A stretch of 64,000 bases of DNA from Nodosilinea nodulosa PCC 7104 (lineage in GTDB: Bacteria; Cyanobacteriota; Cyanobacteriia; Phormidesmidales; Phormidesmidaceae), in the NCBI RefSeq assembly GCF_000309385.1, contig NZ_JH976538.1, forward strand, positions 481,849 to 545,848. Reading direction: 5' to 3'. Made by a program: the position numbers and the translations under genes. The notes under the pieces were generated by a model. That model saw only the letters and a list, made by a program, of their open reading frames with translations. It ran no database searches and was not told where the DNA came from. Below are positions 28,825 to 47,998 of this stretch, in pieces (within the stretch, counting starts at the first letter, position 1; every line of letters starts with the position of its first letter).

Positions 28825-28857
28825 CTTTTCGATTTCTTGACATTTGATTTCTAAAGT
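28825..28857 (+). promoter_or_regulatory. Tandem CTTGAC box and -10, ABC exporter operon
   Basis: CTTTTC-GATTT-CTTGAC at 28825-28841, 10 bp, then TAAAGT at 28852-28857. It lies 65 bp upstream of the lipoprotein start. The first half-site is the most degenerate of the set; the second half and spacing fit exactly. Confidence 0.6.
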
Positions 28858-28921
28858 CAAGCTAATTACAGGAACCTGTTTTGAGACGCCTCAATTCTTT
28901 TACTCCATTTCTGAGGACATT

Positions 28922-29569
28922 ATGAAACCCACACAACGTTTGACATTATTGATTTTGGGAGCCGGAGCCGCCCTACTGGCTGGATGTAGTAGCCAGGGTT
29001 CCACGGCAAAGTCAGACTCTATGACCGCTTCCCCCACTCCAACTACGGTTAATGCTAAGCCGCAAGCGATGACAAAAGAACAGCCCGTCGCTCCAGAAGT
29101 CAATCCGCCAGGCGACATTCCCGACTCCCAGGCCTTCGTTGCCTACACCTCTGCCATTGGGCACTACCGTTTGGACGTACCCGAAGGCTGGGCGCGGCAG
29201 GAAACTGGAACCGATGTCAGTTTCATCGACAAATTAGACGGCGTCAGCGTGACGGTCACGGATACCACAACGCCGTTAACGGCTGATGCCGTCCGCACTC
29301 ATGAAGCAGCACAGGTGGAGCAGTCTGGACGGGCGGTGCAAATTGTCGATGTTAAAGACGTGCAGATGCCCAATGGCAATGGGGTGTTGATTCAATACAC
29401 CTCAAATTCTGAGCCAGACCCCACCACCGGGAAACAGGTCAGGCTAGAGAACAGTGCTTATTTGTTCGTCCACAGCGGCAAGCTGGCAACCGTGAGGCTG
29501 TGGGCACCTCAAGGAGCCGACAATGTGGATCAGTGGCAGCGGATGTCTCAAAGCTTCGGGTGGTCTTGA
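28922..29569 (+). CDS. Lipoprotein associated with the ABC exporter
   Basis: 215 residues. I chose ATG 28922 because TGAGGA precedes it and the protein then begins with a lipoprotein signal (LILGAGAALLAGC, lipobox LAGC). After a Ser/Thr/Pro-rich linker comes a compact domain (FVAYTSAIGHYRLDVPEGWARQ, VSFIDKLDGVSVTVTD), reminiscent of PsbP-like folds. It ends 1 bp before the first ATPase gene, so it is the first gene of an exporter operon and may act as its periplasmic substrate-binding or adaptor partner. Confidence 0.75.
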   Translation: MKPTQRLTLLILGAGAALLAGCSSQGSTAKSDSMTASPTPTTVNAKPQAMTKEQPVAPEVNPPGDIPDSQAFVAYTSAIGHYRLDVPEGWARQETGTDVSFIDKLDGVSVTVTDTTTPLTADAVRTHEAAQVEQSGRAVQIVDVKDVQMPNGNGVLIQYTSNSEPDPTTGKQVRLENSAYLFVHSGKLATVRLWAPQGADNVDQWQRMSQSFGWS

Positions 29570-29570
29570 T

Positions 29571-30233
29571 ATGCCAATGCTAGAAGCCGTTGATTTATAC
29601 CGGTTTTACCACGCCAGGGAAGCCGAGACCCTGGCCCTACGCGGCGTGAGCCTGACCGTGGCGGCAGGCGAAATAGTGGCGGTGATGGGGGCCTCGGGCA
29701 GTGGTAAATCGACGCTGCTCAGCTGCCTAGCAGGGATGGACGAACCTGATGGTGGGTTTGTCAGTCTGATGGGAGAACGGTTTACTCGCCGCCCCGAGCC
29801 CCAGCGAGATGCGATGCGGGCCGCGCACATTGGCATTTTGTTGCAGTCTGGAAATTTATTGGAATATCTGACGGTAGAGCAAAATATTTTGCTGCCCATG
29901 GCGATCGCTGGCCGGATAAACCCATCATGGGTCAACAAACTCCTAGATTGGGTGAACTTGCGCGATCGTCGTCATGCTCGACCGTCTCAACTCTCCGGTG
30001 GTGAAACGGCTCGCAGTGGTTTAGCCGTAGCGTTAGCGACCAATCCTAAAGTACTACTGGCAGACGAGCCCACGGGAGAGGTCGATGCGGATACAGAACA
30101 ACAGATCTTAGCCCTGCTCATATCCCGCCGATCGCAGGGGAGTGCCATTTTGCTGGCTACCCATAGCGAAACCCTAGCGGCTCAAGCGGATCGCATCATT
30201 CGGTTGCAAGACGGGAGAATTGTCGATGACTAA
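29571..30233 (+). CDS. ABC transporter ATP-binding protein (LolD/MacB type)
   Basis: 220 residues from ATG 29571, 1 bp after the lipoprotein stop. Walker A GASGSGKS, signature LSGGE, Walker B VLLADEPTGEVD and switch His (LATHSE) are all present. The signature continues as TARSG rather than the usual QQQR. Family members power FtsX-type permeases that handle lipoproteins or antibiotics. A second ATPase gene follows with an 8-bp overlap. Confidence 0.85.
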   Translation: MPMLEAVDLYRFYHAREAETLALRGVSLTVAAGEIVAVMGASGSGKSTLLSCLAGMDEPDGGFVSLMGERFTRRPEPQRDAMRAAHIGILLQSGNLLEYLTVEQNILLPMAIAGRINPSWVNKLLDWVNLRDRRHARPSQLSGGETARSGLAVALATNPKVLLADEPTGEVDADTEQQILALLISRRSQGSAILLATHSETLAAQADRIIRLQDGRIVDD

Positions 30234-30987
30234 ATTATCTCCAAACCTCTTAATCGAGGCCCAAAACCTGAGGCGTACTTATCACCAGGGCGGTAGCCTG
30301 TTTACTGCCCTTGACTCCGCCAGTTTTCAAGTGTGGGCGGGCGATCGCATTGCCCTAATTGGCCGCTCTGGCAGCGGTAAATCAACGTTGCTGAACCTGA
30401 TGGGCGGACTCGATACCCCCACGGATGGAACCATTGCCTGGGTGGGGCTGGGACCACGGGAAACCCTACGTCCAGCCAAGGTGGCATTTGTGTTTCAGAT
30501 GCCGAGTTTGCTGGCTCCACTAACGGTCATCGAAAATGTGGAGATGCCGCTGCTGCTAGGCGATACCCCGATCGAGATCGCGCGTACCGCCGCGATGGAA
30601 GCTCTAGAGCGACTTCAGCTAACGGCCCTTGCCCAGAAGCTGCCGGAAGAACTCTCTGGTGGACAAATCCAACGAATTGCGGTTGCCCGCACCCTTGCGT
30701 ACCACCCCAAGCTGATATTGGCAGACGAGCCTACGGGGCAACTTGATCATCCGACGGCCACATTGCTACTAGATACGCTCTTTAACACCCTAAAAGATAC
30801 GGATACAGCCCTGGTGATTGCGACCCATGATCCCCTAGTTGCAGATCGGATGCACAAACGATGGACGATACAGCACGGCATTTTGCAGACTGACTCATCC
30901 CACAACGGTTTGCAAACTGTGAACGCAACACCTCAACCCAAATTGTCGATTACACGACCAATGCCGAAAAATTCGGCACCTTTCTAA
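30226..30987 (+). CDS. Second ABC transporter ATP-binding protein
   Basis: 253 residues from ATG 30226 (a TTG lies two codons upstream), overlapping the previous gene by 8 bp. Walker A GRSGSGKS, signature LSGGQIQR, Walker B LILADEPTGQLD and H-loop IATHD are intact. The C-terminus has a ~35-residue extension after the fold. Together with the preceding gene it could form a heterodimeric ATPase for the permease downstream. Confidence 0.85.
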   Translation: MTKLSPNLLIEAQNLRRTYHQGGSLFTALDSASFQVWAGDRIALIGRSGSGKSTLLNLMGGLDTPTDGTIAWVGLGPRETLRPAKVAFVFQMPSLLAPLTVIENVEMPLLLGDTPIEIARTAAMEALERLQLTALAQKLPEELSGGQIQRIAVARTLAYHPKLILADEPTGQLDHPTATLLLDTLFNTLKDTDTALVIATHDPLVADRMHKRWTIQHGILQTDSSHNGLQTVNATPQPKLSITRPMPKNSAPF

Positions 30988-31016
30988 ATCTTGATGGACT
31001 CTAAACCCATTTCACC

Positions 31017-33683
31017 ATGCTTATTTTGCTTTGGCTTAAAGGCTTACTGTCGCGCCGACCCGGTCGGCTGCTGGGGGCGATCGCTGGAGTGGCGCTGACC
31101 GTAGCTCTGCTGGCTGCCATTGGCGTATTTATTGTGGCCAGTGGGGCAACCATGACCCAACGAGCGATCGCCAGTGTTCCCGTCGATTGGCAAATTCAAC
31201 TGGCTCCCGGCACCGATGCAAAAGCGGTCACCGATGCCCTCGGGCAATCGGCGGCCTATTCTGCCCTACAAACCGTTTGTTATGCCGATAGCGATGGATT
31301 CACGGCTAAGACGAAGGGTACTGTGCAAACCACTGGAGCCGGGAAAGTACTGGGCATAGGCCCCAACTATCGAAAGGATTTTGCCCCAGAACTGCGTCCG
31401 CTAATTGGTTCCCTTGACGGTGTATTAGTCGCACAGCAAACCGCTGCCAATCTGCAAGTTGCCCCAGGAGATACCATCACTATTCAGCGTCCTGGGTTGC
31501 CCGCTGCCGAGGTCAAGGTGGATGGTGTGATTGATTTGCCCTTTGCCGATTCTCTCTTTCAAGCCATCGGCACGCCAGCCGGGATGGCACCGCAGGCTCC
31601 CCCCGATAACGTGCTGATTTTACCCTTACAGCAGTGGCATTCCCTGTTTGACCCGCAGGCTCAAGGGCATCCCGATTCAGTACATTTACAGCTACACGTT
31701 CGCCTCATCCACAACCTACCTCCCACTCCCATCAAGGCCTATACTCAGGTCGAACAGCAGGCCCGCAATTTAGAAGCCCGGATTGCCGGGAGCGGCATCG
31801 TAGGCGATAACCTGGGGGCAAAGCTAGATGGCACCCGGAAAGATTCCCTCTATTCTCAAGTGCTGTTTTTGTTTTTAGGGTTGCCAGGGGTAATCCTATC
31901 GGTATTGCTGACGCTAGCGGTCACCGCTGCTGGAAGCGATCGCCGCCGTCAAGAACAATCCCTTTTACGAACTCGTGGTGCAACAATCGGGCAGATTCTG
32001 CAGCTTGCCGGGGTTGAAAGCGCTGTCGTGGGCACAGGGGGAGCTGTCCTCGGGTTGGGATTAGCCGTAATCGCTATGGGTCTACTGACACCAGGCACCT
32101 TACTACTCACCGTCAACAGCGTCGTTTGGATGGCCATCGCCGCTGTGGTCGGTGTGGGGTTAGCGGTCGCCGCCATCCTCTACCCGGCCTGGAAAACGGC
32201 TCGCAGCAGCACAGTTGTCTCGGCCAAAGCCATCATTGGCAACTCTCGTAAACCCCTATGGCGGCAAATATGGCTCGATGGGTTTCTACTCACCCTTGCT
32301 TTTGTGGTGTTTTGGCGAACGGCCAGTACCGGCTATCAGGTGGTGCTGGCACCCGAAGGTGTACCTCAAGCGTCTGTATCCTATGACTCCTTTATTGCGC
32401 CCGTCTGCCTATGGTTGGGGACGGCTCTACTCACCCTGCGTCTGGGTGATGTGGCCTTGGGCCGAGGGCGTTCAACCCTGACTCAGCTCCTGCGGGTCCC
32501 TTTAGGTTCCCTAGCTGGGGTCGTGATTGCCTCCCTCAGCCGTCAGCGCCGGGTGGTAACTAGCTCCATAGCATTGGTGGCGATCGCGGTATCCTTTGCC
32601 GTCTCAACGGCGGTGTTCAACACCACCTACAACGCCCAGGCTAGAGTCGATGCGGAATTAACCAATGGAGCCGATGTGCAGGTGGTGGTGCCGCCCAACT
32701 CAACAGGCATACCGCTGACCATGCAAACCCAGCTGAAAGGATTAGCCAACGTGGCGGCCCTACAGCCAATGCAGCACCGCTTTGCCTACGTAGGCCGCGA
32801 TCTGCAAGATATCTACGGCATTGACCCAGTTAACCTGCCCACCGTCACCCATATTGCCGATGCCTACTTTGCCAATCACGATGCCCAGTCATCCTTAGCG
32901 GCGTTGGCGTCTCGTGCTGATGGCATCTTGGTTTCTGCAGAAACCGTGCGAGACTTTCAGCTTAAATCTGGGGACCTGCTCAACCTACGGCTCCAGAATG
33001 CTCAAGATGGTCAGTATCACATCGTGCCATTCCATTTTGTGGGTGTCGTGAAAGAGTTTCCGACGGCACCAACCGACTCATTTCTGTTGGCTAACGCCGA
33101 CTATATCGCCAAGCAAACGGGTAACTCGGCCACAGAAACGGTGTTGATTCGCACCAAAAACCGCGATCGCGCCTCCCTCCTTGCTCAAATTAAGCCCATT
33201 GTCAGCCCGCTGGCGGGGGTTAAAGTTACCGATATTGATGCAGCCCAACGCACCATCAGCTCCGGATTAACGGCGGTTGATCTGCGCGGACTCACCCGGA
33301 TTGAACTTAGCTTTGCCATTTTGCTACTGGTGGGGGCCACGGGGCTGATGCTGGCCCTAGGCATGGCCGAGCGCCGCCGCACCTTTGCCATCCTGGACGC
33401 CTTGGGAGCCAAGCCCCGACAGCTCGGCAGCTTTTTGTGGACTGAAGGGCTCTTGGTTTTACTCGCAGGCGGCACAGTTGGCGTCCTGCTAGGGTTTGGG
33501 GTTGCCGCCATGCTGGTGAAAGTGTTGACTGGGGTGTTTGACCCACCCCCCGATGTGCTGGCGATTCCGTGGCTTTATTTATTGATGGCGGCGATCGCAT
33601 CGGTGCTGTCTACGGTCATCGCAATTCTGGGCACCCAGAGCCTGTCCTCCAAAGCCAGCCTAGAAGCCCTGCGGGATACCTGA
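31017..33683 (+). CDS. FtsX/MacB-type ABC permease, duplicated
   Basis: 888 residues with two FtsX-like units: an N-terminal TM helix (LLGAIAGVALTVALLAAIGVFIVASGA) and a large periplasmic domain, then three TM helices (~280-400). The arrangement is repeated (VTSSIALVAIAVSFAVSTAVF, periplasmic domain, last TM group ~770-880). This matches large permeases that export lipids, lipoproteins or peptides rather than importing solutes. It lies 29 bp after the second ATPase gene. Substrate unknown. Confidence 0.8.
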   Translation: MLILLWLKGLLSRRPGRLLGAIAGVALTVALLAAIGVFIVASGATMTQRAIASVPVDWQIQLAPGTDAKAVTDALGQSAAYSALQTVCYADSDGFTAKTKGTVQTTGAGKVLGIGPNYRKDFAPELRPLIGSLDGVLVAQQTAANLQVAPGDTITIQRPGLPAAEVKVDGVIDLPFADSLFQAIGTPAGMAPQAPPDNVLILPLQQWHSLFDPQAQGHPDSVHLQLHVRLIHNLPPTPIKAYTQVEQQARNLEARIAGSGIVGDNLGAKLDGTRKDSLYSQVLFLFLGLPGVILSVLLTLAVTAAGSDRRRQEQSLLRTRGATIGQILQLAGVESAVVGTGGAVLGLGLAVIAMGLLTPGTLLLTVNSVVWMAIAAVVGVGLAVAAILYPAWKTARSSTVVSAKAIIGNSRKPLWRQIWLDGFLLTLAFVVFWRTASTGYQVVLAPEGVPQASVSYDSFIAPVCLWLGTALLTLRLGDVALGRGRSTLTQLLRVPLGSLAGVVIASLSRQRRVVTSSIALVAIAVSFAVSTAVFNTTYNAQARVDAELTNGADVQVVVPPNSTGIPLTMQTQLKGLANVAALQPMQHRFAYVGRDLQDIYGIDPVNLPTVTHIADAYFANHDAQSSLAALASRADGILVSAETVRDFQLKSGDLLNLRLQNAQDGQYHIVPFHFVGVVKEFPTAPTDSFLLANADYIAKQTGNSATETVLIRTKNRDRASLLAQIKPIVSPLAGVKVTDIDAAQRTISSGLTAVDLRGLTRIELSFAILLLVGATGLMLALGMAERRRTFAILDALGAKPRQLGSFLWTEGLLVLLAGGTVGVLLGFGVAAMLVKVLTGVFDPPPDVLAIPWLYLLMAAIASVLSTVIAILGTQSLSSKASLEALRDT

Positions 33684-33855: not shown

Positions 33856-34824
33856 CTACAGTAACCATAAACTAATCACAAAGAGTGGATAAGCGGCCAT
33901 TAAAACACCGCCAGCGACCCTGTCCAGATCACCATTCACTGAGGCCAACATCATCACCAGCGCTAGCGACGCCAGCATCACCAGAATAGGAGCATGGAGT
34001 AGGGTCGCATCTACGATCGTTAGCGGGTTAACCACTGCGGCCGCCCCCAAAGTCATGGTGACGTTGTAGGTAAATGAGCCTACTACAGCAGCTACGGTGG
34101 CTTCGGTTGCCCCTCGCCGTGCCGTTGACCAGGCTAAAACAACTAGCTCAACAGACGTGGCAAACCCCACCAGAGTCAGAGCCAGCTTGGTTTGGGTCGC
34201 CTCTACTTGGCTGATCTGCCGGACGGCTTCCACCAACACAATTGAGCCGATAATAATCGCTCCCAACCCAGCCGCCATCAAGAGTAGGTCTTGGCCTACC
34301 CAAGAATACAGACCGCTAGCCTGTTCATTCTGGAATGCCTCAGCTGCTTCTTCAAGTTCTCCAGTTTCTCCCAGGGATGGAGGCCGGCGCTCTGCCCACC
34401 AGATGCCGCCCACATAAAGGGCGTAGCAGCCAACCAGCACGATTCCTTCCACTCGGCTCACCTGTCCATTCCAAACAAACCCGCTGGCGAGGATACCAAT
34501 GGGTAAACCAAACAGAGCGTAGCGCATCACCCGCCGACCAAACGGCAGCGGTGCCACCCAAGCTCCCACACCCAAAGCTACCAGGCAAATAGCAATGTTG
34601 GCACCAATCACGTCGCCTACGGCGATCGCGGGAACCCCCCGCAGAGAAGCTGTTACCCCAGTAGCCAACTCTTCGGGCTCGGCCCCCGCCAACAGCAGGG
34701 CGAGAGCAAAAGCGCTCACCCGTAGGCGCACCGCTGCCGCCCCAAGGTGTTCGGCGAAAGTCTCGGCTCCCCAAATAATTAACGCTATACCAGCGACAAT
34801 TAATAGCCCCCAGAGAATGGTCAT
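33856..34824 (-). CDS. Sodium/calcium exchanger family membrane protein
   Basis: 322 residues, ~10 TM helices in two halves. The alpha-repeat motifs of the CaCA family are visible: GAEPEELATGVTASLRGVPAIAVGDVIGANI in the first half and GFATSVELVVLAWSTARRGATEATVAAVVGSFTYN in the second. The family exchanges Ca2+ or related cations for Na+ or H+ across the inner membrane. An acidic cytoplasmic loop separates the halves. No tandem box lies upstream. Convergent with the exporter operon. Confidence 0.8.
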   Translation of the reverse strand: MTILWGLLIVAGIALIIWGAETFAEHLGAAAVRLRVSAFALALLLAGAEPEELATGVTASLRGVPAIAVGDVIGANIAICLVALGVGAWVAPLPFGRRVMRYALFGLPIGILASGFVWNGQVSRVEGIVLVGCYALYVGGIWWAERRPPSLGETGELEEAAEAFQNEQASGLYSWVGQDLLLMAAGLGAIIIGSIVLVEAVRQISQVEATQTKLALTLVGFATSVELVVLAWSTARRGATEATVAAVVGSFTYNVTMTLGAAAVVNPLTIVDATLLHAPILVMLASLALVMMLASVNGDLDRVAGGVLMAAYPLFVISLWLL

Positions 34825-34964: not shown

Positions 34965-35900
34965 CTACATAATATGAGCTGCAATCGCCGCCAGAATTAC
35001 CACTCCAAACCCTAGCCGATACCAGACAAAAATCCAAGTACTTTTGTTTTGCAAATAGCGCAATAGCCAGGCAATAGAAACATATGAGAACACAAAGGCT
35101 GAAGCAATTCCTACCAGCAGAAGAATCAAGTCATCAACATTTTCAAATGCCTTGCTTGACTGATAAAGTGTGGCTAATGTCAGAGTAGGAATCCCTAACA
35201 AGAAAGAGAATCTTGCTGCTGTTTCTCGCTCTAGTCCCAAAAACAATGCTGTTGTCAAAGTCGACCCAGACCGGGAGGCACCTGGAAACAAAGCAATTGT
35301 TTGTCCTAATCCTACTAAAATACCATCCTTGATTTTGAGACTGTCGAATTTGCGTTTACGACTACCAAGCTTCTCCGCCAGCCCTAGCAGAATAGACATT
35401 ACAATCGACATAACCGCAATTATGAATGCACTATCTGGCAAAATATCTTTGAGCAAAAAGCCAACAATCAGTGCTGGCAAAGTCCCAACAGCGATACCAA
35501 CCAGAATCTTCCACTCCTCTTGTTCCCAGTCTCGCCTCTGAAAAGCCGACCAACACCCCGCTAGAATTTTGCTAATATCAGGCCAAAAGTACATAACTAC
35601 GGCAATAACACTGCCAAACTGAATGGCATCGATAAAATACTTTTGTCCTAGCGTTGTCCACCCAAAAACTTCGGTAAACACAAGCAAGTGGGCTGTGCTA
35701 CTAATCGGCAGAAACTCTGTGATGCCTTGTATAATGCCCAGCACAATTGCTTCAAAGAACCCCGTCAGTAAGTTAAGTTTTTCAGGAGCAGCAGATTGAG
35801 CCGCAACTGCAATTATTTGTTGTCCTAAATCCAATTCGCCACTCAAACTCGAATACACTGTAACTTGGAACAAGATTAAGCCAGAATAGAGAAACGTCAT
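34965..35900 (-). CDS. uppP: Undecaprenyl-diphosphatase (BacA family)
   Basis: 311 residues, polytopic. Both BacA signatures are present: IVLGIIQGITEFLPISSTAHL and FPGASRSGSTLTTALFLGLER. The enzyme dephosphorylates undecaprenyl diphosphate at the membrane and so recycles the carrier for peptidoglycan synthesis. The N-terminus is ~45 residues longer than usual and a later start is possible. The upstream region (35901-36057) is very AT-rich and lacks the tandem box. Confidence 0.88.
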   Translation of the reverse strand: MTFLYSGLILFQVTVYSSLSGELDLGQQIIAVAAQSAAPEKLNLLTGFFEAIVLGIIQGITEFLPISSTAHLLVFTEVFGWTTLGQKYFIDAIQFGSVIAVVMYFWPDISKILAGCWSAFQRRDWEQEEWKILVGIAVGTLPALIVGFLLKDILPDSAFIIAVMSIVMSILLGLAEKLGSRKRKFDSLKIKDGILVGLGQTIALFPGASRSGSTLTTALFLGLERETAARFSFLLGIPTLTLATLYQSSKAFENVDDLILLLVGIASAFVFSYVSIAWLLRYLQNKSTWIFVWYRLGFGVVILAAIAAHIM

Positions 35901-36057: not shown

Positions 36058-36582
36058 CTATCTCTCCTTAGTTATAGGATCAGAGCAATCCAAATAGGGA
36101 TTCCAAGTGATTGCTAGCAGGGTCACCTGGTTGGCTCCAAGCTGAGTCATCTGCTGATTCTTAGCCGCTACAGACTGATTGATTCGATCCAGGCTACTTG
36201 TTAGCTGGACGATGCCTGAGCCATTGCTGGAAACTTGCTGGCTGAGCTGTTGGGCAGACTGCTGAAGCGTTGCTAAATCAGCCTGGGCATTAGCCCAATC
36301 GGCGACTTTGGCCATGTCATAGACCCGCTCACCATATTCGCTTACATCTTTAAGGGCTTGTGGCACTTGGTCATCCTGAACTTCAGTATCCGTGTCATTA
36401 AGGGGATCGTTCGCCGTAGCATTCGACTCTTGAATCTGATCTGGGAAAGCAACTGCCGTTGCTGAATGCTGAGGCATCGTTGCGACAGGCCGTTGGGGTT
36501 GATTGCCAGTAAAACTGCGGGCCGCTCCAGAAATTCCGAGGGTACCCAGCAGCGCTGTAGCAATCAGAAAACTCTTTTTCAT
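36058..36582 (-). CDS. Exported coiled-coil-like hypothetical protein
   Basis: 174 residues from ATG 36582, preceded by AAGAAAGG. Signal peptide SFLIATALLGTLGISGAARS. The mature part is helical and rich in Gln and Ser (LATLQQSAQQLSQQVSSNG), suggesting a coiled coil. A tandem box and -10 lie 31-63 bp upstream, so it belongs to the island regulon. Family not recognised. Confidence 0.7.
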   Translation of the reverse strand: MKKSFLIATALLGTLGISGAARSFTGNQPQRPVATMPQHSATAVAFPDQIQESNATANDPLNDTDTEVQDDQVPQALKDVSEYGERVYDMAKVADWANAQADLATLQQSAQQLSQQVSSNGSGIVQLTSSLDRINQSVAAKNQQMTQLGANQVTLLAITWNPYLDCSDPITKER

Positions 36583-36612: not shown

Positions 36613-36645
36613 ATAGTAAGAATCAAAGGTCAAGAACTTGTCAAT
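36613..36645 (-). promoter_or_regulatory. Tandem box and -10 for the 36058-36582 gene
   Basis: On the minus strand: ATTGAC-AAGTT-CTTGAC (36645-36629), 10 bp, then TACTAT (36618-36613). Confidence 0.75.
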
Positions 36646-36952: not shown

Positions 36953-37444
36953 ATGAAAACCTCAATTAAGACTGCCCTAACGCTCGGTTTAATCACTGCC
37001 GTTGGTGCGAGTGGTGCTGCCATGGTTGCGAATGCCAAAGGTAGTTCACCTACCACTACAGATGCTCAGATAGCTCAAGCCGCTGATGGTGAAATGAACG
37101 ATGCCTCTGAAAACGAGGCCAACGAGATGGGTGAGGGATCTGAAGACACTCAGGAAATGTCCCAATACCAGGCTTTAGCAAAGATTACACCGCAGCAGGC
37201 TCAGCAAACGGCTGAAGCTGCCCAAGGCGGCACAGCTAGCAGAGTTGAGCTTGATGTGGATGATGGCAGCCTGGTATACGCCGTTGAGTTTGCCGATGCT
37301 GAAGTCACGGTCGATGCTGGCAATGGTCAAATTCTCAAAACTGAACCCAACGGTCAGGAGGAAAATGACGCGGCTGAAGCATCTATTCAAGGCAGCATTC
37401 AGGTACCAGATAATGACCAAGAGCAAGGAGAAACACAGCAATAG
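36953..37444 (+). CDS. Exported PepSY-domain protein
   Basis: 163 residues. Signal peptide (TALTLGLITAVGASGAAMVANA), an acidic linker, then a PepSY-like domain: ITPQQAQQTAEAAQGGTASRVELDVDDGSLVYAVEFADAEVTVDAGNGQIL. An acidic Gln/Glu-rich end follows. PepSY domains often occur beside two-component systems and proteases in the envelope; some inhibit peptidases. It has its own tandem box and a terminator-like hairpin downstream. Confidence 0.8.
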   Translation: MKTSIKTALTLGLITAVGASGAAMVANAKGSSPTTTDAQIAQAADGEMNDASENEANEMGEGSEDTQEMSQYQALAKITPQQAQQTAEAAQGGTASRVELDVDDGSLVYAVEFADAEVTVDAGNGQILKTEPNGQEENDAAEASIQGSIQVPDNDQEQGETQQ

Positions 37445-37893: not shown

Positions 37894-38056
37894 CATTTTC
37901 AGTCAGTATCAATAGGTTATAAAATAGCCTGAAACCTAAACGGTAGCGGGCTACTTTTGATTTTTCATCCATTTATAGGTGGGTTATTTTCTGCCTGTAG
38001 ACATCATAAAAATCTCGCAAACAAACATTCTAGATTTTCTAAAAACAGATTCTGCA
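37894..38056. other. AT-rich spacer
   Basis: No gene or clear structure seen before the next tandem box. Confidence 0.4.
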
Positions 38057-38089
38057 TCTTGTCTAGTTCTTGACGATTAATTTCTATAT
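38057..38089 (+). promoter_or_regulatory. Tandem box and -10 for exported repeat protein 1
   Basis: CTTGTC-TAGTT-CTTGAC (38057-38073), 10 bp, TATATT (38084-38089). The following bases AAGAGACATAGGGAAAGG also occur behind the box at 39779, so the two promoters are duplicates. The leader is ~135 nt. Confidence 0.8.
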
Positions 38090-38230
38090 TAAGAGACATA
38101 GGGAAAGGCGATATGAAATCTCCACCGCTTTGGAAGCATAGCTCCTTCAATAGGTGAAGAAACCTTCAAGTATATTTCCTATCTCTTTAGTTCAATCACT
38201 ACCTACTCACTTCAAAAAAGGTTCAACACC

Positions 38231-38605
38231 ATGAAACGTATCATTCTTTCCATTCTGTCTGCTGCTGCTGTCGTGGGTGCCGTTGCCCCAATGGCCAATG
38301 CTATGCCTAATCGACTTGACAATCTGCATCAGGCCAACCTCAACGGTGTTTATCTTAACCCTAGATCAGCCGATGCTACCCATCAAACACCAGGGCAAAC
38401 TCAGTCCGTACAGCAGGCTAGCCCTAGTCGTCTTGACCAACTGCGTCAGGCAGGTTTAGACGGGGTCTATCTTAACCCCAGACAAGTTGATGTAGCCAAT
38501 CAAGGTAGCCAGGATACACATAACGTGCTAGTCCAAACTCAGCAAAACCAACAGCCTATTTCAAAATTGATGGCCTTACATTCTACCAATGTAGCCAATC
38601 GCTAG
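38231..38605 (+). CDS. Small exported protein with internal repeat, paralogue 1
   Basis: 124 residues with a signal peptide (IILSILSAAAVVGAVAPMANA). The mature part contains the motif R-L-D-x-L-x-Q-A-x-L-x-G-V-Y-L-N-P-R twice, separated by Gln/Thr-rich linkers. The paralogue at 39950-40315 has the same plan. No Cys, no TM segment; probably periplasmic or outer-surface. No known family recognised. Expression likely controlled by the box upstream. Confidence 0.75.
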   Translation: MKRIILSILSAAAVVGAVAPMANAMPNRLDNLHQANLNGVYLNPRSADATHQTPGQTQSVQQASPSRLDQLRQAGLDGVYLNPRQVDVANQGSQDTHNVLVQTQQNQQPISKLMALHSTNVANR

Positions 38606-38793: not shown

Positions 38794-39558
38794 ATGAACA
38801 AGGTTGCAGAAGTCACTATTTATTTCTGGATCATGAAGATCCTGGCAACGACCCTTGGCGAGACAGCAGGCGATTTCATTTCGATGTCGCTGGGCCTGGG
38901 ATATTACGTTGGCTTCGCGATCACATTTTCGATTCTGACAGTTATTCTGTTTACTCAGATTAAAGCCGATCGATATCGTCCGATTCTCTACTGGACGGCC
39001 ATCATTGCTACAACCACAGCCGGAACCGAAGTTTCTGACCTGATGGATCGCTCTCTAGGGCTTGGCTACGCCGTAGGTTCATTAATCTTAGTCGCAGGTT
39101 TACTCGCTGCACTAACAATTTGGTACTACAGAGATCGAGATTTGAGCGTTTATCCCATTTTCAAAAAGGATGGGGAGACAATGTATTGGCTAGCGATCGT
39201 ATTCTCCAATAGCTTAGGGACAGCCTTTGGCGATTTTCTGACGAGCAACCTTGGGCTGAGCTATATACATGGTGCATTTGTAACGGCCAGCGTTATTGGT
39301 ATAGTCATTGCTCTACATTATTGGACGCAATTAAACGATATCCTACTGTTTTGGGTGGCGTTTATATTCACACGCCCTTTCGGGGCCACGTTTGGGGATT
39401 TTCTCACCAAACCTATCAACACTGGGGGGCTTAATTTGCCCAGGAGTTATGCTTCGGTAGTTACCTTGCTTTTACTCGCAACCATTCTATTCTTTTCAAT
39501 GCAGAGTGAGAAACGAAAGCTTAGCCCCGTGCGTAAACCCCACAAAATTCGCTATTAA
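38794..39558 (+). CDS. DUF347 (COG4705-type) membrane protein 1
   Basis: 254 residues built of four repeats of ~55 residues, each with a pair of TM helices and a signature such as TTLGETAGDFISMSLGLGYYVG or NSLGTAFGDFLTSNLGLSYIHG (G-T/E-x-x-G-D-x-L). This is the DUF347 pattern; function unknown. It lies 188 bp after the exported repeat protein. Only a poor match to the box (CTTGAT at 38695) is upstream, so it may be read from the promoter at 38057. The second island copy is at 43675-44466. Confidence 0.8.
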   Translation: MNKVAEVTIYFWIMKILATTLGETAGDFISMSLGLGYYVGFAITFSILTVILFTQIKADRYRPILYWTAIIATTTAGTEVSDLMDRSLGLGYAVGSLILVAGLLAALTIWYYRDRDLSVYPIFKKDGETMYWLAIVFSNSLGTAFGDFLTSNLGLSYIHGAFVTASVIGIVIALHYWTQLNDILLFWVAFIFTRPFGATFGDFLTKPINTGGLNLPRSYASVVTLLLLATILFFSMQSEKRKLSPVRKPHKIRY

Positions 39559-39636: not shown

Positions 39637-39778
39637 GTATATATCTATTTTTCAGAAAACACTATTCCATGCCAAATTTTCTTCAAAAGTATCTTTACCT
39701 CAGAGTAAATTCTGGCTATTTATTGACATATACAATGCATCTAGTTTCTGAGCCATACTTTTTGAGAAGGCCCTATAT

Positions 39779-39811
39779 CTTGCATAGTTCTTGACAATTC
39801 GCTTCTATATT
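39779..39811 (+). promoter_or_regulatory. Tandem box and -10 for exported repeat protein 2
   Basis: CTTGCA-TAGTT-CTTGAC (39779-39795), 10 bp, TATATT (39806-39811), then the same AAGAGACATAGGGAAAGG as at 38090. Confidence 0.8.
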
Positions 39812-39949
39812 AAGAGACATAGGGAAAGGTTAGATACTAACTCCACTCTCTTCAAATCCTAGCTAACTCAATGAGTGGAAAAAACTTTAAGCACATACGC
39901 TTAACTCCTTTGCCCAAATGCTGTTCACTTTTAAAGAAGGTATAACACT

Positions 39950-40315
39950 ATGAAACGCTTCATCTTTTCCGTTTTGTCTGCTGCTGCTGTCGTTGGTGCC
40001 GTTGCCCCAATAGCCAATGCAATGCCCACCCGTCTCGAGAATCTGCGTCAAGCCAATCTCAATGACGTCTATCTGAGCCCAAGACAAGCTGATGCGCCCC
40101 ATCCAGCGTTAAGCCAGGGTCAGCCCACCCAACAGGCCAATTCAAGCCGCCCTGAGCAGATACGCCAAGCTCACTTTAATGATGTTCATCTAAACTCAAT
40201 GCCAGACCGTCAAGTTAGACAGGGTGCTCAAGGAACATCGGCCCAAACTCAGAGAGACCAACAGCCTAGTTCAAGGATGCAAAGGATGCACCTCGAAGAC
40301 ATAGGTAAGCGCTAG
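39950..40315 (+). CDS. Small exported protein with internal repeat, paralogue 2
   Basis: 121 residues, starting with a signal peptide almost identical to that of 38231-38605 (SVLSAAAVVGAVAPIANA). The repeat motif appears as RLENLRQANLNDVYLSPR and, degenerate, RPEQIRQAHFNDVHLN. The Met-rich end differs from paralogue 1. The divergence of the mature part compared with the conserved promoter and signal peptide suggests an older tandem duplication under relaxed constraint. Confidence 0.72.
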   Translation: MKRFIFSVLSAAAVVGAVAPIANAMPTRLENLRQANLNDVYLSPRQADAPHPALSQGQPTQQANSSRPEQIRQAHFNDVHLNSMPDRQVRQGAQGTSAQTQRDQQPSSRMQRMHLEDIGKR

Positions 40316-40541: not shown

Positions 40542-41246
40542 TTAGGTAGGTGGCATGCCCTTCAAGTACTGTAAGCGCAACAAGGCGACGCAAGCCATTA
40601 CCCATAAAAAGCCCACACTGTACCCAGCGATAACATCGGTGGGCCAATGCACGCCTAGATAAAGCCGACTAAAGCCGATCGCCGCAATTAGGAAACAGGC
40701 TAGTCCATAAACCAGACGCTTATATTTTGGGAACTGCGTCGCCAGTAGGTAGGCAGAAAACCCATACAGCACCATTGATCCTAGGGCATGGCCGCTGGGG
40801 TAGCTAAACGTTTTTTCTGAAATCAGCAGCGGCCAGAGTTGGGGACGGGGTTTGCCAAAGGCAAGCTTTAGGCCAGTACTTAGAATAGTGCCTCCTAAAC
40901 AGGCTAGGGTAAACACCTTAGCCTCTTGGCGAAGGCGTCGCCACCACAGCAGTATTAATACAGCAAGTGCTAGAGGAATAACAAAGCTAGGATTGCCAAG
41001 GCGAGTAATCCCTAGCATTAGCTGATCTAGCCTTGGATTCGCAAACTGATGAATCCAGAGCAGAATAGTTGTATCAAACGCAAAAGCCTCTTGCTCCCAG
41101 ACCTCTTCAGAGAGCTTAGCCAATAAAAAGATGATTAGTAGACAGAGCCCTAACCCTGCTGTGCTGATGAGAGCAAGTAGTGGGGCTATTCGAGGATAAA
41201 ATCGTGCTAACCAGAAGTTAGCTAGTCGATGTAGAAAAGAATGCAT
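40542..41246 (-). CDS. PAP2-family membrane phosphatase
   Basis: 234 residues, five to six TM helices. The three PAP2 signatures are intact: KLAFGKPRPQ, YPSGHALGS and SRLYLGVHWPTD. Family members (PgpB, YbjG type) dephosphorylate undecaprenyl diphosphate or phosphatidylglycerol phosphate on the outer side of the inner membrane. The island also holds a BacA-type phosphatase, so two unrelated enzymes may serve the same lipid carrier. Upstream (41322-41338) is only a weak box match. Confidence 0.85.
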   Translation of the reverse strand: MHSFLHRLANFWLARFYPRIAPLLALISTAGLGLCLLIIFLLAKLSEEVWEQEAFAFDTTILLWIHQFANPRLDQLMLGITRLGNPSFVIPLALAVLILLWWRRLRQEAKVFTLACLGGTILSTGLKLAFGKPRPQLWPLLISEKTFSYPSGHALGSMVLYGFSAYLLATQFPKYKRLVYGLACFLIAAIGFSRLYLGVHWPTDVIAGYSVGFLWVMACVALLRLQYLKGMPPT

Positions 41247-42852: not shown

Positions 42853-43041
42853 TTAGCGTCTTAAGTTGTAGATTACTTTTTCCAGATACCACTGGTCTGT
42901 ATGGCCAGGGTGGTTTCTCTTTTCATATGCAATTAGGCGATCGGCCGTATCCTGATTGCTGTGAACTATGGTCAGTAGCTCCCGCCGCAATCGCTCATTA
43001 GTCGAACCTTGAAGAAATCTATTAATAAGATTAGTAGCCAT
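42853..43041 (-). CDS. Small soluble hypothetical protein
   Basis: 62 residues, basic, helical (MATNLINRFLQGSTNERLRREL, then DQWYLEKVIYNLRR). AAGGAG lies upstream of the ATG and a perfect tandem box with TATAGT -10 lies 35-67 bp upstream, which makes it a convincing gene. No signal peptide or TM segment. Function unknown. Confidence 0.72.
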   Translation of the reverse strand: MATNLINRFLQGSTNERLRRELLTIVHSNQDTADRLIAYEKRNHPGHTDQWYLEKVIYNLRR

Positions 43042-43075
43042 TTAGCTGAACTCCTTGATCTGAAGCGTTATCTTG

Positions 43076-43414: not shown

Positions 43415-43678
43415 TCATCCGGCGTCAGTTGGCACTAAGGCTACAATCAGCGCTTTCATAATTGATTCTTGGATACCTATACCAATGCGCCAAAGCATCA
43501 TTTCTAATAGAGCCATGGATACATTGCTAAGAAAGCTAGTGGCACAGCCTGCCTGCTCCGCCACTAACAGCACGGCTGCGGCTTCCCAGCGTCCGGTTAA
43601 AGCCAGCAGCATAATTGCTCCCGTATTGATGGTGTAGCCCAAAATCATGAAATCAAGCTGAATTGCGCTGTTAATCAA
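43415..43678 (-). CDS. Small membrane protein coupled to DUF347 gene
   Basis: 87 residues from a TTG that overlaps the stop of the DUF347 gene (TTGA), suggesting coupled translation. Two to three hydrophobic segments (GYTINTGAIMLLALTG, AAAVLLVAEQAG, SIMKALIVALVP). Could be a separate small membrane protein or the remnant of a longer one. No family recognised. Confidence 0.5.
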   Translation of the reverse strand: MINSAIQLDFMILGYTINTGAIMLLALTGRWEAAAVLLVAEQAGCATSFLSNVSMALLEMMLWRIGIGIQESIMKALIVALVPTDAG

Positions 43679-44466
43679 TTATCAACTAGCTCTTCTCCGA
43701 CTCTAATCTGATCTTTTCGAGTGACGGATAAGTAAACAATCAGAATTAAAATTGTAGTGAGAAAGATCATGCTGGTTCCTACGGTACCAAAGCCAAGACC
43801 ACCATTGGTAACCGGCTGCGAGAGTAAATCACCTGTAGAGGCTCCCAGAGGTCGAGTCAGGATGTAAGCTAGCCAAAACGCCAAGATTTCGTTCATATGA
43901 AGGAAGTAGTCGGCGGCGGCAACAAGCGCGATCGCCGCACCAAAGACCAAGGCTGACTGGAAATAGCCCAGTCCAGAGGCCTCGGCCAGCAGATCTCCAG
44001 CTGCCGTCCCTAAAGCGAAGGTAAAGAAAATAGTAGCCCAGTAAAATAGCTCTCTTTTAGCGGTACGGATAGAGTGCATTGCCAGTGTTTTTTCGCTTAA
44101 GTACCAGGCAGCAAAAACTACAGCTAGGGCAAGGCTGAAACCTATGGTAGCTGCTAGCTTAGTAACCCCAAGGTTATCCACCAATAAATCTGTAATCAAC
44201 GTCCCAACAATGCTAACCAAAACAACTACTAGCCAATAATTTGCTGGGATATATCGCTTCAACCTAAACTGGTTTAAAAGTACCCCTATCAACAATCCGC
44301 TCATGATGTACGAGGTGATAACCAAGCCCAGATTGAGCGTTGCTGATAAAAAATCTGCGGCGGTTTCGCCGACTGTTGTAGCCATAATTTTAATAATCCA
44401 GAAGTAAAGCGTCACTTCTGGGACTCTGACGAGTTGCTTTGGAACGGTGTCTAGAGTGCTCTCCAC
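43675..44466 (-). CDS. DUF347 (COG4705-type) membrane protein 2
   Basis: 263 residues. Four repeats with signatures TTVGETAADFLSATLNLGLVI, SIVGTLITDLLVDNLGVTKLA, FALGTAAGDLLAEASGLGYFQ and RPLGASTGDLLSQPVTNGGLGFG. The last is very close to the end of DUF347 protein 1 (TNGGLGFG versus NTGGLNLP). Eight TM helices predicted by eye. Function unknown. A tandem box lies ~140-175 bp upstream. Confidence 0.82.
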   Translation of the reverse strand: MESTLDTVPKQLVRVPEVTLYFWIIKIMATTVGETAADFLSATLNLGLVITSYIMSGLLIGVLLNQFRLKRYIPANYWLVVVLVSIVGTLITDLLVDNLGVTKLAATIGFSLALAVVFAAWYLSEKTLAMHSIRTAKRELFYWATIFFTFALGTAAGDLLAEASGLGYFQSALVFGAAIALVAAADYFLHMNEILAFWLAYILTRPLGASTGDLLSQPVTNGGLGFGTVGTSMIFLTTILILIVYLSVTRKDQIRVGEELVDN

Positions 44467-44607
44467 GATATTTTCTCCTGTTTGGGTTGCTTATGTTTTG
44501 ATTAAAGGTCTTCAGATCACCGCCAAGGAAGATAATCCCTGTCAAGATCTCAGATCTGATGGTAGCCTTGGCGGTCAACCCGTTTGAATCCCTCTGAGTT
44601 CAGTCTG

Positions 44608-44640
44608 ACCATAGCAAGCAATCGTCAGGAACTCGTCAAG
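44608..44640 (-). promoter_or_regulatory. Tandem box and -10 for DUF347 protein 2
   Basis: On the minus strand CTTGAC-GAGTT-CCTGAC (44640-44624), 10 bp, TATGGT (44613-44608). Confidence 0.78.
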
Positions 44641-44754
44641 ATAGGTTTCCTGAGCCGAAAAATCTAGTTTTCAGTGTTCTAGCGCCGTTAAACACTCAGC
44701 CAAGAGTCTGTTTTGCCCGATCTAGCCCAGCTATTTCCGGGCTGCTCTCTTAGC

Positions 44755-44895
44755 CCATTATGCGAACCCTGCCGTACCTCCGGATGGCTAATGGGATGTC
44801 GACGCTTGGTGCGAGACTACGAAAAGTTGCCGAAAACATCGGAAACCCTCATCTACTTGGCCATGATTCGTATCATGGTCAGGCGATTGGCATAA
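44755..44895 (+). pseudogene. IS5-type transposase C-terminal relic
   Basis: RRLVRDYEKLPKTSETLIYLAMIRIMVRRLA is the typical end of cyanobacterial IS5-family transposases. The upstream part is in disarray and no complete element is present. Confidence 0.7.
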
Positions 44896-44969
44896 TTTTT
44901 GACCCCGTCAGACTTTTCAAACGTCCTCTTACATGTAGCGCTATCAACGCTTTGATTCTGCAAGTTTAA

Positions 44970-45215: not shown

Positions 45216-45252
45216 GTCTCTGAAGGCAATCCAACCTTCTCTTGATACTTTT

Positions 45253-45284
45253 AATCTAAAACGGACGGTCAAGAACCCGACAAG
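45253..45284 (-). promoter_or_regulatory. Tandem box and -10 for the 81-residue protein
   Basis: On the minus strand CTTGTC-GGGTT-CTTGAC (45284-45268), 9 bp, TAGATT (45258-45253). The only member with a 9-bp gap. Confidence 0.65.
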
Positions 45285-45354
45285 TTATAAGTATTCATGG
45301 TGGGCAGTTTAGTGCCCTTGTCTCTGACGGTGATCGCCGCACGCTAATCTCACT

Positions 45355-46596
45355 TCAAGCCTTAGCATTTATAGGTAAATGCACGATAAAGCAACTGCCA
45401 GCGCCTAAGGTACTTTTGACTTCAATGCTGCCCCCATGGCTTTGAATGATGACTTGAGTAATTGATAGCCCTAGACCAGAACCGCCGTCATCATAGCTGC
45501 GGGCCTGATCAGCTCGCCAAAAGCGCTCAAAGATTTGCTCAAGGTTTTCTGGTGCAATGCCAACACCAGTGTCATATATGCTCACCCGGAGTTGTTGCCC
45601 TAAACGTCTAGCTTCAACCTTGACTTTGCCGCCTGCTGGGGTATATCGAATGGCGTTTTGCAGTAGGTTGGTAAAAGCTCTCATTAAACTAGCAAAGTCG
45701 CCTTGCAGGAATAGCGTTGCCTCCAAGTTGGCCGTCAGCTCAATTTGCTTATTTTCAGACTGGGGATGATAGAGTTGCACCAAATCATATAGAAGATCCG
45801 AGAGATTGACAGGGGCTAGTGTCATTGTTGAAGCTCTGTCTGTTCTGGCTAGCAGTAGTAAATCTTCTGTGAGCCGTGTCATTTGCTCGGTGGCACTGAT
45901 CACTGCACTCATCACCTCATGATCTTCTTCACGCATCCCGTCTGGGTATTTGAGAGCAACTTCCACATTGCTAGAAATAGCCATCAGCGGACTACGCAAC
46001 TCATGTGAAGCATCTGCCGTAAACTGCTTGAGGCGATGAAAGCTAGCTTCAATCGGCTGCATCGCTTGGCGGTTTAGCCAAATGCTACCGGCACTACTAA
46101 GAATGACGGCAACAATTACCCCGACGCCTAAACCGATATCTAGCTGAAACACGGTTTCATCAAACTCATCCAGCAATTGGCTTACTCTGACGTAACCAAT
46201 GAGTTTCCCGGATTCAGTGCTCAGGATAGGCAGAGTAATAGACTGAATTGAAGGCTTTCCGGTTTGAATCTCTACGACTGCCTGCGGATCAAGCGGAGCA
46301 TTAGGGGTATAATCGCCTTGCTGCTTAACTAATTTTTTTTCTGTGTTAAACCACTCCAATGCTTGATACTTATCGATGATTTTTTGAGCCAGAAATTCGT
46401 TTTCAACTTGGAGTTGACCATTGTCAATTTCAGCATTGCCTACTGCACCTTGACCTAGCGTGATCAACCGCTCGGTCAGTTGTTGCTTAAGGTTACGGAC
46501 AAATACAAGTCGAACTGCTAGAGCAAACCCTGTTAGAACAAGGGCAATGACTAAGAGGTTGGCGATCAGTAAACGATAACGAATTTTTTCGAACAT
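45355..46596 (-). CDS. Sensor histidine kinase of the island
   Basis: 413 residues. Two TM helices (LLIANLLVIALVLTGFALAVRLV and LGVGVIVAVILSSAGSIWL) enclose a ~125-residue periplasmic sensor region. The kinase core is complete: H-box FTADASHELRSPL, N-box NLLQNAIRYTPAGG, G1 DTGVGI, F ERFWRADQ, G2 GGSGLGLS. It would autophosphorylate on the H-box His and pass phosphate to the regulator encoded 20 bp upstream. The architecture resembles cyanobacterial RppB/NrsS-type sensors, but the signal cannot be read from the sequence. Confidence 0.9.
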   Translation of the reverse strand: MFEKIRYRLLIANLLVIALVLTGFALAVRLVFVRNLKQQLTERLITLGQGAVGNAEIDNGQLQVENEFLAQKIIDKYQALEWFNTEKKLVKQQGDYTPNAPLDPQAVVEIQTGKPSIQSITLPILSTESGKLIGYVRVSQLLDEFDETVFQLDIGLGVGVIVAVILSSAGSIWLNRQAMQPIEASFHRLKQFTADASHELRSPLMAISSNVEVALKYPDGMREEDHEVMSAVISATEQMTRLTEDLLLLARTDRASTMTLAPVNLSDLLYDLVQLYHPQSENKQIELTANLEATLFLQGDFASLMRAFTNLLQNAIRYTPAGGKVKVEARRLGQQLRVSIYDTGVGIAPENLEQIFERFWRADQARSYDDGGSGLGLSITQVIIQSHGGSIEVKSTLGAGSCFIVHLPINAKA

Positions 46597-46616
46597 CCTG
46601 ATGCTATTATTAAGAA

Positions 46617-47297
46617 CTAGAAATCTAAAGGAATTAGTCTATATCCCATGCCATAGACAGTTTCGATCATGTCGTTCAGGCTGCCTGCTGCTTTGAGCTT
46701 ACTACGTAGATTTGTTAGATGGGTTTTAATCGTGCCTTCACCAGAGAATTGATCAAATTCCCAGAGTTTATCGAGTAATGCCGAACGACTGATAACCTGA
46801 CCAGGATGGCGAAGAAAATATTCTAAAATCAAATATTCTTTGGGAGTAAGTGATAGAGCAATTTTGTCATAGGTGACGACTTGAGTGGCTGGATCTAGCT
46901 TTAAGGGGCCGTAGTGCAACGTAGGCGGAGTTAACTCTCGACTGCGGCGCTGGAGCGCTCGAATACGCGCGGCTAGCTCCTCAAGCTTAAACGGTTTAAT
47001 TAAATAATCATCGGCTCCAGCGTCTAGGCCCATGACTTTATCGCTAGTCGTGTCTTTGGCAGTAAGCATCAAAATTAGAGCCTGACATTGAGCCGCTCGC
47101 AGCCGCCTGCACAAGTTGATCCCATCTAATCGGGGCAGCATCACATCTAGCAGGATTAAGTCGTAGTCGGTGGCCTGGGCATAATCCCACCCTTCTAGAC
47201 CATCCGGAGCGATATCGACACTGTAGTTTTGGTGTCGCAAATCTTTAGCTAGAGGATTTGCAATGCGGGTATCATCTTCAATAATGAGAATTTTCAT
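46617..47297 (-). CDS. OmpR/PhoB-family response regulator of the island
   Basis: 226 residues from ATG 47297. The receiver domain has the acidic pair (IIEDD), the phosphoacceptor Asp in LILLDVMLPRLDG, Thr (MLTAKD) and Lys (LIKPFK). The C-terminal winged helix (LSLTPKEYLILEYFLRHPGQVISRSALLDKLW, TIKTHLTNLRSKL) is of OmpR type, which binds direct repeats with ~11-bp period. It is the only such regulator in the window, and ten matching tandem boxes surround it. It follows the dead signal peptidase gene by 30 bp and is probably transcribed from the box at 47982. Confidence 0.92.
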   Translation of the reverse strand: MKILIIEDDTRIANPLAKDLRHQNYSVDIAPDGLEGWDYAQATDYDLILLDVMLPRLDGINLCRRLRAAQCQALILMLTAKDTTSDKVMGLDAGADDYLIKPFKLEELAARIRALQRRSRELTPPTLHYGPLKLDPATQVVTYDKIALSLTPKEYLILEYFLRHPGQVISRSALLDKLWEFDQFSGEGTIKTHLTNLRSKLKAAGSLNDMIETVYGMGYRLIPLDF

Positions 47298-47327
47298 GGC
47301 ATTTAGCAATTTTATGAACTGAGCAGT

Positions 47328-47900
47328 TTACTGAGTGCTAGATCGCTGGTGGGTGATAATGTAGCTGGGGTGATCAATCTCGTTAATGCGGTTCAGGGGC
47401 GAGTAACATAAGGCGGCATTGCCAATAATACGATCTCGCAGCACAAAGCCCTATCCAGAGGTATCAAAGGTATTGTCGCCTAACACTAGATAATTGTCGG
47501 ATGGGACAATAGCGGAGCCGCAATAGTAGATAGGCAGTGTAGCCACATATTTCTCCCTCAAGGGTTGACTATTGACATAAACTCGATCACTGGAGACTTC
47601 CACTTTTTTACTGGGCTGCCCAATCACTTGTTTAATGAGCGTCTCATGGTCGTTTTGCTGCTCTAAAGCTTGGGAAGGATTCAACACAATGACATCCCCT
47701 CGATTAGGTAAGCTAAAATCACAACTTAGTTTATCGATCATTAGGCGATCGTTGACCTGTAATGTTAGTTCCATTTAACCGGAAGAGATATAGCATACCT
47801 CGGACATCAAGGTATAGATACCAAAGGCCAACATCAGACTCAGTTCCAGAATCTTTAAATTTCGATAACTGCTGGACTGAGAGTTGAAGGATAAACTGCT
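47328..47900 (-). pseudogene. lepB: Signal peptidase I gene, inactivated by two nonsense codons
   Basis: The minus strand reads ILELSLMLAFGIYTLMSEVCYISSG, stop (TAA), MELTLQVNDRLMIDKLSCDF, then NRGDVIVLNPS, VIGQPSKKVEV (with the Lys region), YLVLGDNTFDTSG, stop (TAG), GFVLRDRIIGNAALCYSPLNRI. In signal peptidase I the first stop takes the place of the catalytic Ser (SGSM) and the second that of a conserved Trp (WGFV). The stretch before ILEL is out of frame with a plausible start (MPHKAVYPS). Known family members cleave signal peptides at the periplasmic side. The gene heads the operon of the two-component system. Confidence 0.75.
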
Positions 47901-47965
47901 TTATGAGGCATAAGTCCATTGGGAGATATGGAATATTGACCTCAGATTCTGAGATCTTGATTGCT

Positions 47966-47998
47966 AGCCTAGCCAATAAGGGTCAAGAATTCGTCAAG
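47966..47998 (-). promoter_or_regulatory. Tandem box and -10 for the lepB-regulator-kinase operon
   Basis: On the minus strand CTTGAC-GAATT-CTTGAC (47998-47982), 10 bp, TAGGCT (47971-47966). Implies autoregulation of the two-component genes. Confidence 0.8.

Follow-up and report, generated by a model that had tools for sequence, protein, structure and literature searches.

A 20-kb island in the 64-kb stretch of Nodosilinea nodulosa PCC 7104 analysed here (the window, meaning the whole stretch) carries ten copies of a tandem CTTGAC-type promoter box, and these are very probably sites of the OmpR/PhoB-family response regulator encoded in the same island, making up a predicted autoregulated regulon of tandem-site class II promoters. 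A sequence-only reading of this DNA had proposed that regulator as the controller, and it is indeed the likeliest one, as indicated by the co-occurrence of boxes and regulator, the constant spacing of the promoter elements, a helix signature and the specificity of the boxes for certain loci. In the mechanism that we propose, the neighbouring kinase would phosphorylate the regulator, two monomers of which would bind head to tail on two 11-bp units (CTTnnCnAnTT and CTTGACnnT); the bound regulator, covering the -35 region with TANNNT 10 bp downstream, would activate transcription in the class II manner of PhoB and PmrA. A box at the regulator gene, or at the gene just ahead of it, would provide positive autoregulation, and the outputs would be exported acidic PepSY proteins, DUF347 membrane proteins, phosphatases and small envelope proteins. 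In this genome the module sits on an island richer in AT, and in named strains it is found on plasmids, with a regulon that would extend to a few decaying chromosomal copies.

The ten boxes are the following (scores are those of a matrix trained on other genomes, described below; numbers in brackets are the positions used in the sequence-only reading):

28825-28857, forward strand: box with TANNNT at +10, 40.8 bits, ahead of a lipoprotein gene (ATG at 28922) and the ABC exporter genes (29523-33683)
36613-36645 (36629), reverse strand: box with TANNNT at +10, 28.0 bits
36870-36902, forward strand: box with TANNNT at +10, 36.6 bits
37693-37725, forward strand: box with TANNNT at +10, 25.5 bits, with only a 33-codon open reading frame (ORF) downstream
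38058-38090, forward strand: box with TANNNT at +10, 33.9 bits
39779-39811, forward strand: box with TANNNT at +10, 27.5 bits
43076-43108 (43092), reverse strand: box with TANNNT at +10, 30.2 bits
44608-44640 (44624), reverse strand: box with TANNNT at +10, 32.6 bits
45253-45284 (45268), reverse strand: box with TANNNT at +9, with only an ORF of ~81 codons downstream
47966-47998 (47982), reverse strand: box with TANNNT at +10, 32.4 bits, preceding a signal-peptidase remnant, with the regulator-kinase pair ~650 bp further

All ten were recovered on re-reading the window, the fifth starting at 38058 rather than 38057, and TANNNT begins 10 bp past the box in nine of them and 9 bp past it at 45268. 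The tandem-site class II geometry originally described (a direct repeat with an 11-bp period at a constant distance from the -10 element) is upheld. At three sites (37693, 45268 and 47982) there is little to back the accompanying claim that each box points to the gene nearest to it, and the two short ORFs behind the first two of these have no relatives in the searched loci of other genomes. Allowing up to three mismatches to CTTGAC-N5-CTTGAC gave 54 window matches vs 52.8 expected, and loose matching is therefore uninformative. The eight matches with at most one mismatch are all boxes of the original set, inside the island; the remaining two boxes have two mismatches, a level equalled by five additional matches (three in the island and two outside). 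With a matrix derived from 60 sites in other genomes, nine of the ten boxes are recovered at 25.5-40.8 bits, the 45268 site being missed because of its 9-bp spacing; no other window position scores 10 bits or more, and nothing is found in the reversed window.

The sequence-only reading had suggested looking for the same boxes in other cyanobacteria, and they were found there beside orthologues of the regulator, with recurring target families. An earlier scan of 57 genomes (the own genome and its relatives), with one mismatch allowed, hardly rose above background once the own genome was set aside: matches occurred in five other genomes, and control matches in five. The informative scan relaxed the pattern at two positions and matched it exactly in 388 sampled genomes of the class: the box pattern occurs in 44 of these, distributed over 32 of 159 genera, and regulator matches at E<=1e-78 in 65. 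With the own genome excluded, exact boxes are present in 28/42 regulator-positive genomes (E<=1e-90) vs 15/345 regulator-negative ones (Fisher p=1.3e-21, a value inflated because the genomes are related), and 34 of the 71 sites from other genomes share a contig with a regulator gene (E<=1e-78) at no more than 20 kb, the median distance being 2.5 kb.

The spacing proved similarly constant in a set of 34 core boxes, taken without any condition on the -10 element from the window, the chromosomal locus L062 and 25 loci picked by regulator homology. TANNNT stands at +10 in 33 of the 34, the sole exception being the 45268 site of the window, and no other offset from 0 to 35 occurs more than three times; five further plasmid loci have it at +10 in seven of eight boxes. 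Among the TTCTTGAC sites outside the core, 9/28 also carry TANNNT at +10, and some degenerate boxes therefore go uncounted.

Locus specificity was assessed with the matrix, which was trained on 60 of the 71 non-own exact sites, leaving out seven near-duplicates (the second sites of G218 and G293, two sites of G214, and G228:C96, G258 and G345) and four sites that looked unrelated (G369, G242, G211 and G230). At a threshold of 25 bits, hits occur in 24 of 30 loci whose regulator belongs to the clade of the island regulator (50 hits in 564 kb), and are absent both from reversed in-clade sequence and from 86 loci of other OmpR-type regulators (1.55 Mb), of which 15 are cyanobacterial judging from their record titles (seven plasmid loci and eight from a scan of named genomes) and the remainder form a weaker control. 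Loci L100-L119 overlap the training set; nine plasmid loci lie outside it, with the reservation that one or other of them may be closely related to a training genome.

These plasmid loci come from a regulator query at E<=1e-60, which returned 20 plasmid records, 11 of them typed as conjugative. Eleven records hold a regulator 60-80% identical to the query, and nine of these were opened (six typed conjugative, one mobilizable and two non-mobilizable). All nine combine the regulator with a box hit of at least 25 bits, barely so in L252 and L254 (25.3-26.1 bits).

The regulator clade is also marked by its DNA-binding domain: the stretch that, from PhoB, we take to be the recognition helix fits [KR]TH[ILM]xN[LI]R in 36/36 clade members and in 0/7 outgroup regulators, a stricter form (KTH[IL]TN[LI]R) being found in 26 of the 36. 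The own genome holds 21 further regulator matches at E<=1e-30, the nearest of which (C1:522457, 72% identical) shares both clade and helix signature with the island regulator and lies 3.3 kb from a chromosomal box ahead of a PepSY gene; the next paralogues are 55-57% identical. Among the named genomes scanned, one regulator is close (L146, 67%), another is 52% identical (L147) and the others range from 37 to 48%.

The window sits in a 793-kb replicon (C2) of a 6.9-Mb genome in two contigs. Scanning this genome with the generalised pattern CTTNNCNNNTTCTTGAC-N10-TANNNT gave nine exact and three one-mismatch sites, and two more at two mismatches (the reversed control gave six in all). Of the 12 sites with at most one mismatch, nine lie in the island; the other three are chromosomal and match exactly, and all 12 are tied to the island or to related genes or remnants. 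This whole-genome scan is a check that the sequence-only reading had itself proposed. The statement that no clear box exists outside the island stands for the window and fails for the genome. Nor is the regulon self-contained, as had been claimed, because the three chromosomal boxes precede relatives or remnants of island genes, and the chromosome also encodes a paralogous two-component pair. The gene behind one of these boxes encodes a PepSY homologue that shares 42% identity with the island PepSY protein; behind another is a DUF347 gene interrupted by an in-frame stop (L063:5237-6040; region C1:465104). The third (C1:587) is inside a 227-bp, 93%-identical copy of the C1:465104 DUF347 region that covers only the first ~45 bp of DUF347; next to this remnant, where the chromosome contig begins, lies a sequence that exactly matches part of a 1.8-kb repeated element of the window. 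The genome pattern scan places no box at another DUF347 gene, C1:4504433. The reading frame of the chromosomal kinase switches midway (L062:8135-9416), and the chromosomal paralogue system looks decayed because of this frame change and the in-frame stop in DUF347. Adjoining the chromosomal PepSY box are genes resembling, by eye, those of phage tail sheath and tail tube proteins (L062:12776-14905), perhaps a contractile injection system.

Several observations weigh against assigning the boxes to the island regulator. Beyond the inflated p-value and the largely non-cyanobacterial control set, 15 genomes have exact boxes without a regulator at E<=1e-90; in two of those scored as negative (G382 and G245), pieces of a regulator adjoin the box, and missed matches and broken genes therefore swell the negatives. 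Six of the 30 in-clade loci have no hit at 25 bits or more: L105 and L107 have decayed boxes below this score at the expected spot ahead of DUF347, and L108, L110 and L112 have no hit at the threshold, L108 showing a weaker one of 23.1 bits. The closest orthologue (G071, 83% identity, one internal stop) is found on a boxless contig of 13.6 kb, in a genome without any exact pattern match. In an alignment of 29 kinase sensor domains, no metal-ligand motif such as ExxE is evident by eye. Finally, the box of the window's own regulator is ~650 bp upstream, beyond a pseudogene-like remnant, and the chromosomal paralogue (72%) could bind the same boxes.

The last point leads to an alternative that we consider unlikely but not negligible, namely that the regulon is chiefly that of the chromosomal paralogue (C1:522457), the island being a set of portable targets, or that both regulators share it. 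The proximity of C1:522457 to a perfect box ahead of a PepSY homologue (3.3 kb), and the common clade and helix signature of the two regulators, would fit this scenario; however, the frame change in the kinase and the stop in DUF347 make the chromosomal copy look decaying, and the nine opened plasmid loci of other strains hold regulator and boxes together. A control by the island regulator is likewise preferred over an alternative-sigma or ordinary -35/-10 promoter with no activator site, which is very improbable: while CTTGAC resembles the sigma-70 -35 hexamer, the TTGAC motifs lie 10 and 21 bp from TANNNT, unlike the usual sigma-70 spacing of 16-18 bp between -35 and -10, and neither the direct repeat at 11-bp intervals nor the association with a single regulator clade would be accounted for. 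A plain sigma-70 promoter was rejected on these three grounds. It is scarcely credible that the boxes are functionless repeats spread via transposition or duplication, although two stretches of the window (38056-38175 and 39777-39896) are duplicates of each other (73% identical) and the C1:587 box belongs to the 227-bp copy of the C1:465104 region; most sites share only box and -10, with differing flanks, and both the recurrence of target families and the presence of the pattern in 32/159 sampled genera speak against mere copying.

The genes of the island, in the order of their coordinates, are:

28922-29569, forward strand: putative lipoprotein, with a weak PsbP-like match below cut-off
29523-33683, forward strand: two ABC ATPases and an FtsX/MacB-like permease (exporter), probably in an operon with the lipoprotein gene, judging from the spacing
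33856-34824, reverse strand: Na/Ca-exchanger family protein, possibly in an operon behind the 36629 box
34965-35900, reverse strand: UppP/BacA undecaprenyl-diphosphatase, possibly in the same operon behind the 36629 box
36058-36582, reverse strand: exported protein, with box-preceded orthologues (64-65% identical) in G212 and G218
36953-37444, forward strand: acidic exported PepSY protein
38231-38605, forward strand: exported repeat protein 1
38794-39558, forward strand: DUF347 membrane protein a
39950-40315, forward strand: exported repeat protein 2, a paralogue of the 38231 protein
40542-41246, reverse strand: PAP2 phosphatase, with no box immediately upstream in the window, box-preceded in other genomes
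42853-43041, reverse strand: 62-residue protein, conserved with its box in G212 and G218, of a family of 62-67 residues that includes L113:6841-7035 and L119:6776-6970
43675-44466, reverse strand: DUF347 membrane protein b
45355-46596, reverse strand: sensor histidine kinase (HisKA, HATPase_c and an ArlS_N-like sensor)
46617-47297, reverse strand: OmpR/PhoB-family response regulator, the proposed controller (Response_reg and Trans_reg_C, both above Pfam gathering scores)
47451-47774, reverse strand: signal peptidase I remnant, located between the regulator and the 47982 box, that does not cover the N-terminal portion of the profile and has a stop codon before its ATG

Past residue 25, the PepSY protein contains 29 D+E vs 4 K+R, and its best match among PDB sequences is marginal (E=0.02). 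DUF347b has four G-x4-D repeats (residues 33-38, 88-93, 153-158 and 208-213) that would suit cation transport; a search of DUF347 against PDB sequences gave nothing meaningful, and structure prediction from two sequences gave no usable model (mean predicted local distance difference test score, pLDDT, of 42). The island is flanked by a 126-bp direct repeat (99%; 28144-28269 and 48255-48380), and its guanine-cytosine content is 0.477 vs 0.549 and 0.572 on its two sides; this repeat and a composition 7-10 points below the flanks suggest that the island was gained by recombination. Signal peptidase matches share a stretch with a box or regulator at L134, L226 and L238 too. At 44713-44895 is a relic of a transposase C-terminus that by eye resembles an intact one at L062:6500-7291, and a perfect inverted repeat of 1794 nt (4574-6367 and 50147-51940) is probably a mobile element.

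Targets were compiled from 80 non-redundant sites of at least 22 bits, nine of them from the window; since the list includes loci fetched for holding a box, the cluster sizes are descriptive only. A downstream ORF could be assigned for 71 of the 80. The largest cluster is that of exported/PepSY proteins (29 sites), joined in part via signal-peptide similarity, followed by DUF347 (11), the 62-67-residue family (3), PAP2 (3) and an unnamed family (3); the remaining ORFs form six pairs, one made up of the regulator (2) and another of HtrA-like proteins (2, identified by eye), and ten singletons, the kinase among them. Recurring neighbours in other genomes are the regulator-kinase pair, PepSY, DUF347 (often two) and PAP2. 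A box stands ahead of the regulator in two genomes (L086 and L088), and ahead of DUF347-regulator-kinase on pANACY.02. In L130 and L131, which come from two other genomes, boxes around position 1501 precede what appear by eye to be RTX-like glycine/aspartate-repeat proteins, a possible calcium link.

From their predicted functions, the targets (PepSY/exported proteins, PAP2 and UppP phosphatases, an ABC exporter, and HtrA-like proteins in two genomes) make an envelope theme plausible, and metal stress is an equally good candidate for the signal. We tentatively favour, at somewhat less than even chances, an envelope stress that arises from metal ions or from loss of envelope integrity, with PepSY proteins acting as metal binders or kinase partners; the DbfQRS system of Vibrio, which includes a PepSY protein, is reported to be sensitive to membrane integrity (PMC12714742). 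A rival that concerns the signal only, and that may just as well be correct, is an excess of metal ions (Pb, Fe, lanthanide, uranyl or similar), countered by surface binding and precipitation through acidic PepSY proteins, DUF347 exporters and phosphatases. It accords with the DUF347-UppP operons reported among the lead-upregulated genes of Frankia, in a source that also cites DUF347 as metal-induced in a diatom (PMC4531530), and with the reported binding of uranium/iron and of lanthanides by the PepSY proteins UipA and LanP (PMC8963506, PMC11845868). Genes annotated for metal efflux, metal transport or metalloregulators occur near 5/9 opened in-clade plasmid loci; however, the other 4/9 have no metal genes in the stretch fetched, and the association is unspecific because such genes also accompany 3/7 out-of-clade plasmid loci (regulators below 60% identity; seven of nine such records opened). 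The kinase sensor has no standout metal ligands, and HtrA-like targets in two genomes would fit general envelope stress equally.

These results define, from sequence alone, the likely binding site and the membership of a regulon in many cyanobacterial genera. The promoter rule (33/34) is strict enough for predicting targets in any genome, and by tying DUF347, the cyanobacterial PepSY proteins and the 62-67-residue family to one regulator it makes their function testable via induction. The plasmid loci further suggest a stress circuit that travels with its promoters intact. As a more speculative and rather doubtful extension, one regulator clade and one box on conjugative plasmids may constitute a mobile, hitherto unnamed cyanobacterial stress regulon linking plasmid and chromosomal genes in one circuit; its PepSY proteins would bind metal as outputs and also serve the kinase as sensory partners, and DUF347 would be its cation exporter. 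The regulon had been called undescribed: a description of the box was not found in the open-licence PMC literature searched, and the claim holds only that far.

Among known systems, the best-scoring curated families are RppA (NF041734, 237.9 bits vs a cut-off of 250) and RppB (NF041735, 260.8 vs 400). RppA/RppB of Synechocystis (RppA/NrsR) is reported as cyanobacterial, metal-linked and autoregulating, with AAMAWCTCYYWCCCC as the published RppA binding motif (PMC13421787). The island system resembles it in being cyanobacterial and in these scores, and differs in its targets, which are unlike those reported for RppA. An identity with RppA was rejected, given the score below cut-off, the 44% identity between the island regulator and an RppA-named protein on plasmid pCHRO.01, and the absence of the published motif from the boxes: with up to three mismatches, AAMAWCTCYYWCCCC has 36 window matches vs 27.5 expected, of which 0 overlap any of the ten boxes.

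DbfQRS/BqsRS-type systems, in which a small secreted PepSY protein is encoded beside regulator and kinase, are described as a widespread arrangement (PMC12714742). A PepSY gene is at most four genes from the kinase/regulator in annotated plasmid loci such as those of pANACY.02 and pCHRO.01, and ~8-10 kb from the pair in the window; the present system differs in being cyanobacterial and in its association with DUF347, PAP2 and a defined promoter box. In UipRS-UipA, a PepSY protein has a two-component system upstream, and LanP (lanpepsy) is reported to bind lanthanides (PMC8963506, PMC11845868). The PepSY protein of the island is acidic in composition and would be a candidate metal binder.

The closest parallel in mechanism is with PhoB and PmrA. 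As in the pho box and the PmrA box, the repeats run head to tail every 11 bp and cover the -35 region, ~10 bp upstream of the -10 element; the sequence of the half-site and the target genes are unlike theirs. PhoB is reported to bind direct repeats in tandem, head to tail (PMC4415409). The curated cut-offs of both families exceed the scores of the island regulator (PhoB, TIGR02154, 188.4 vs 296.2; PmrA, NF007928, 189 vs 330), which by score is thus a member of neither and yet would appear to work as they do, through a regulatory principle that is itself classical.

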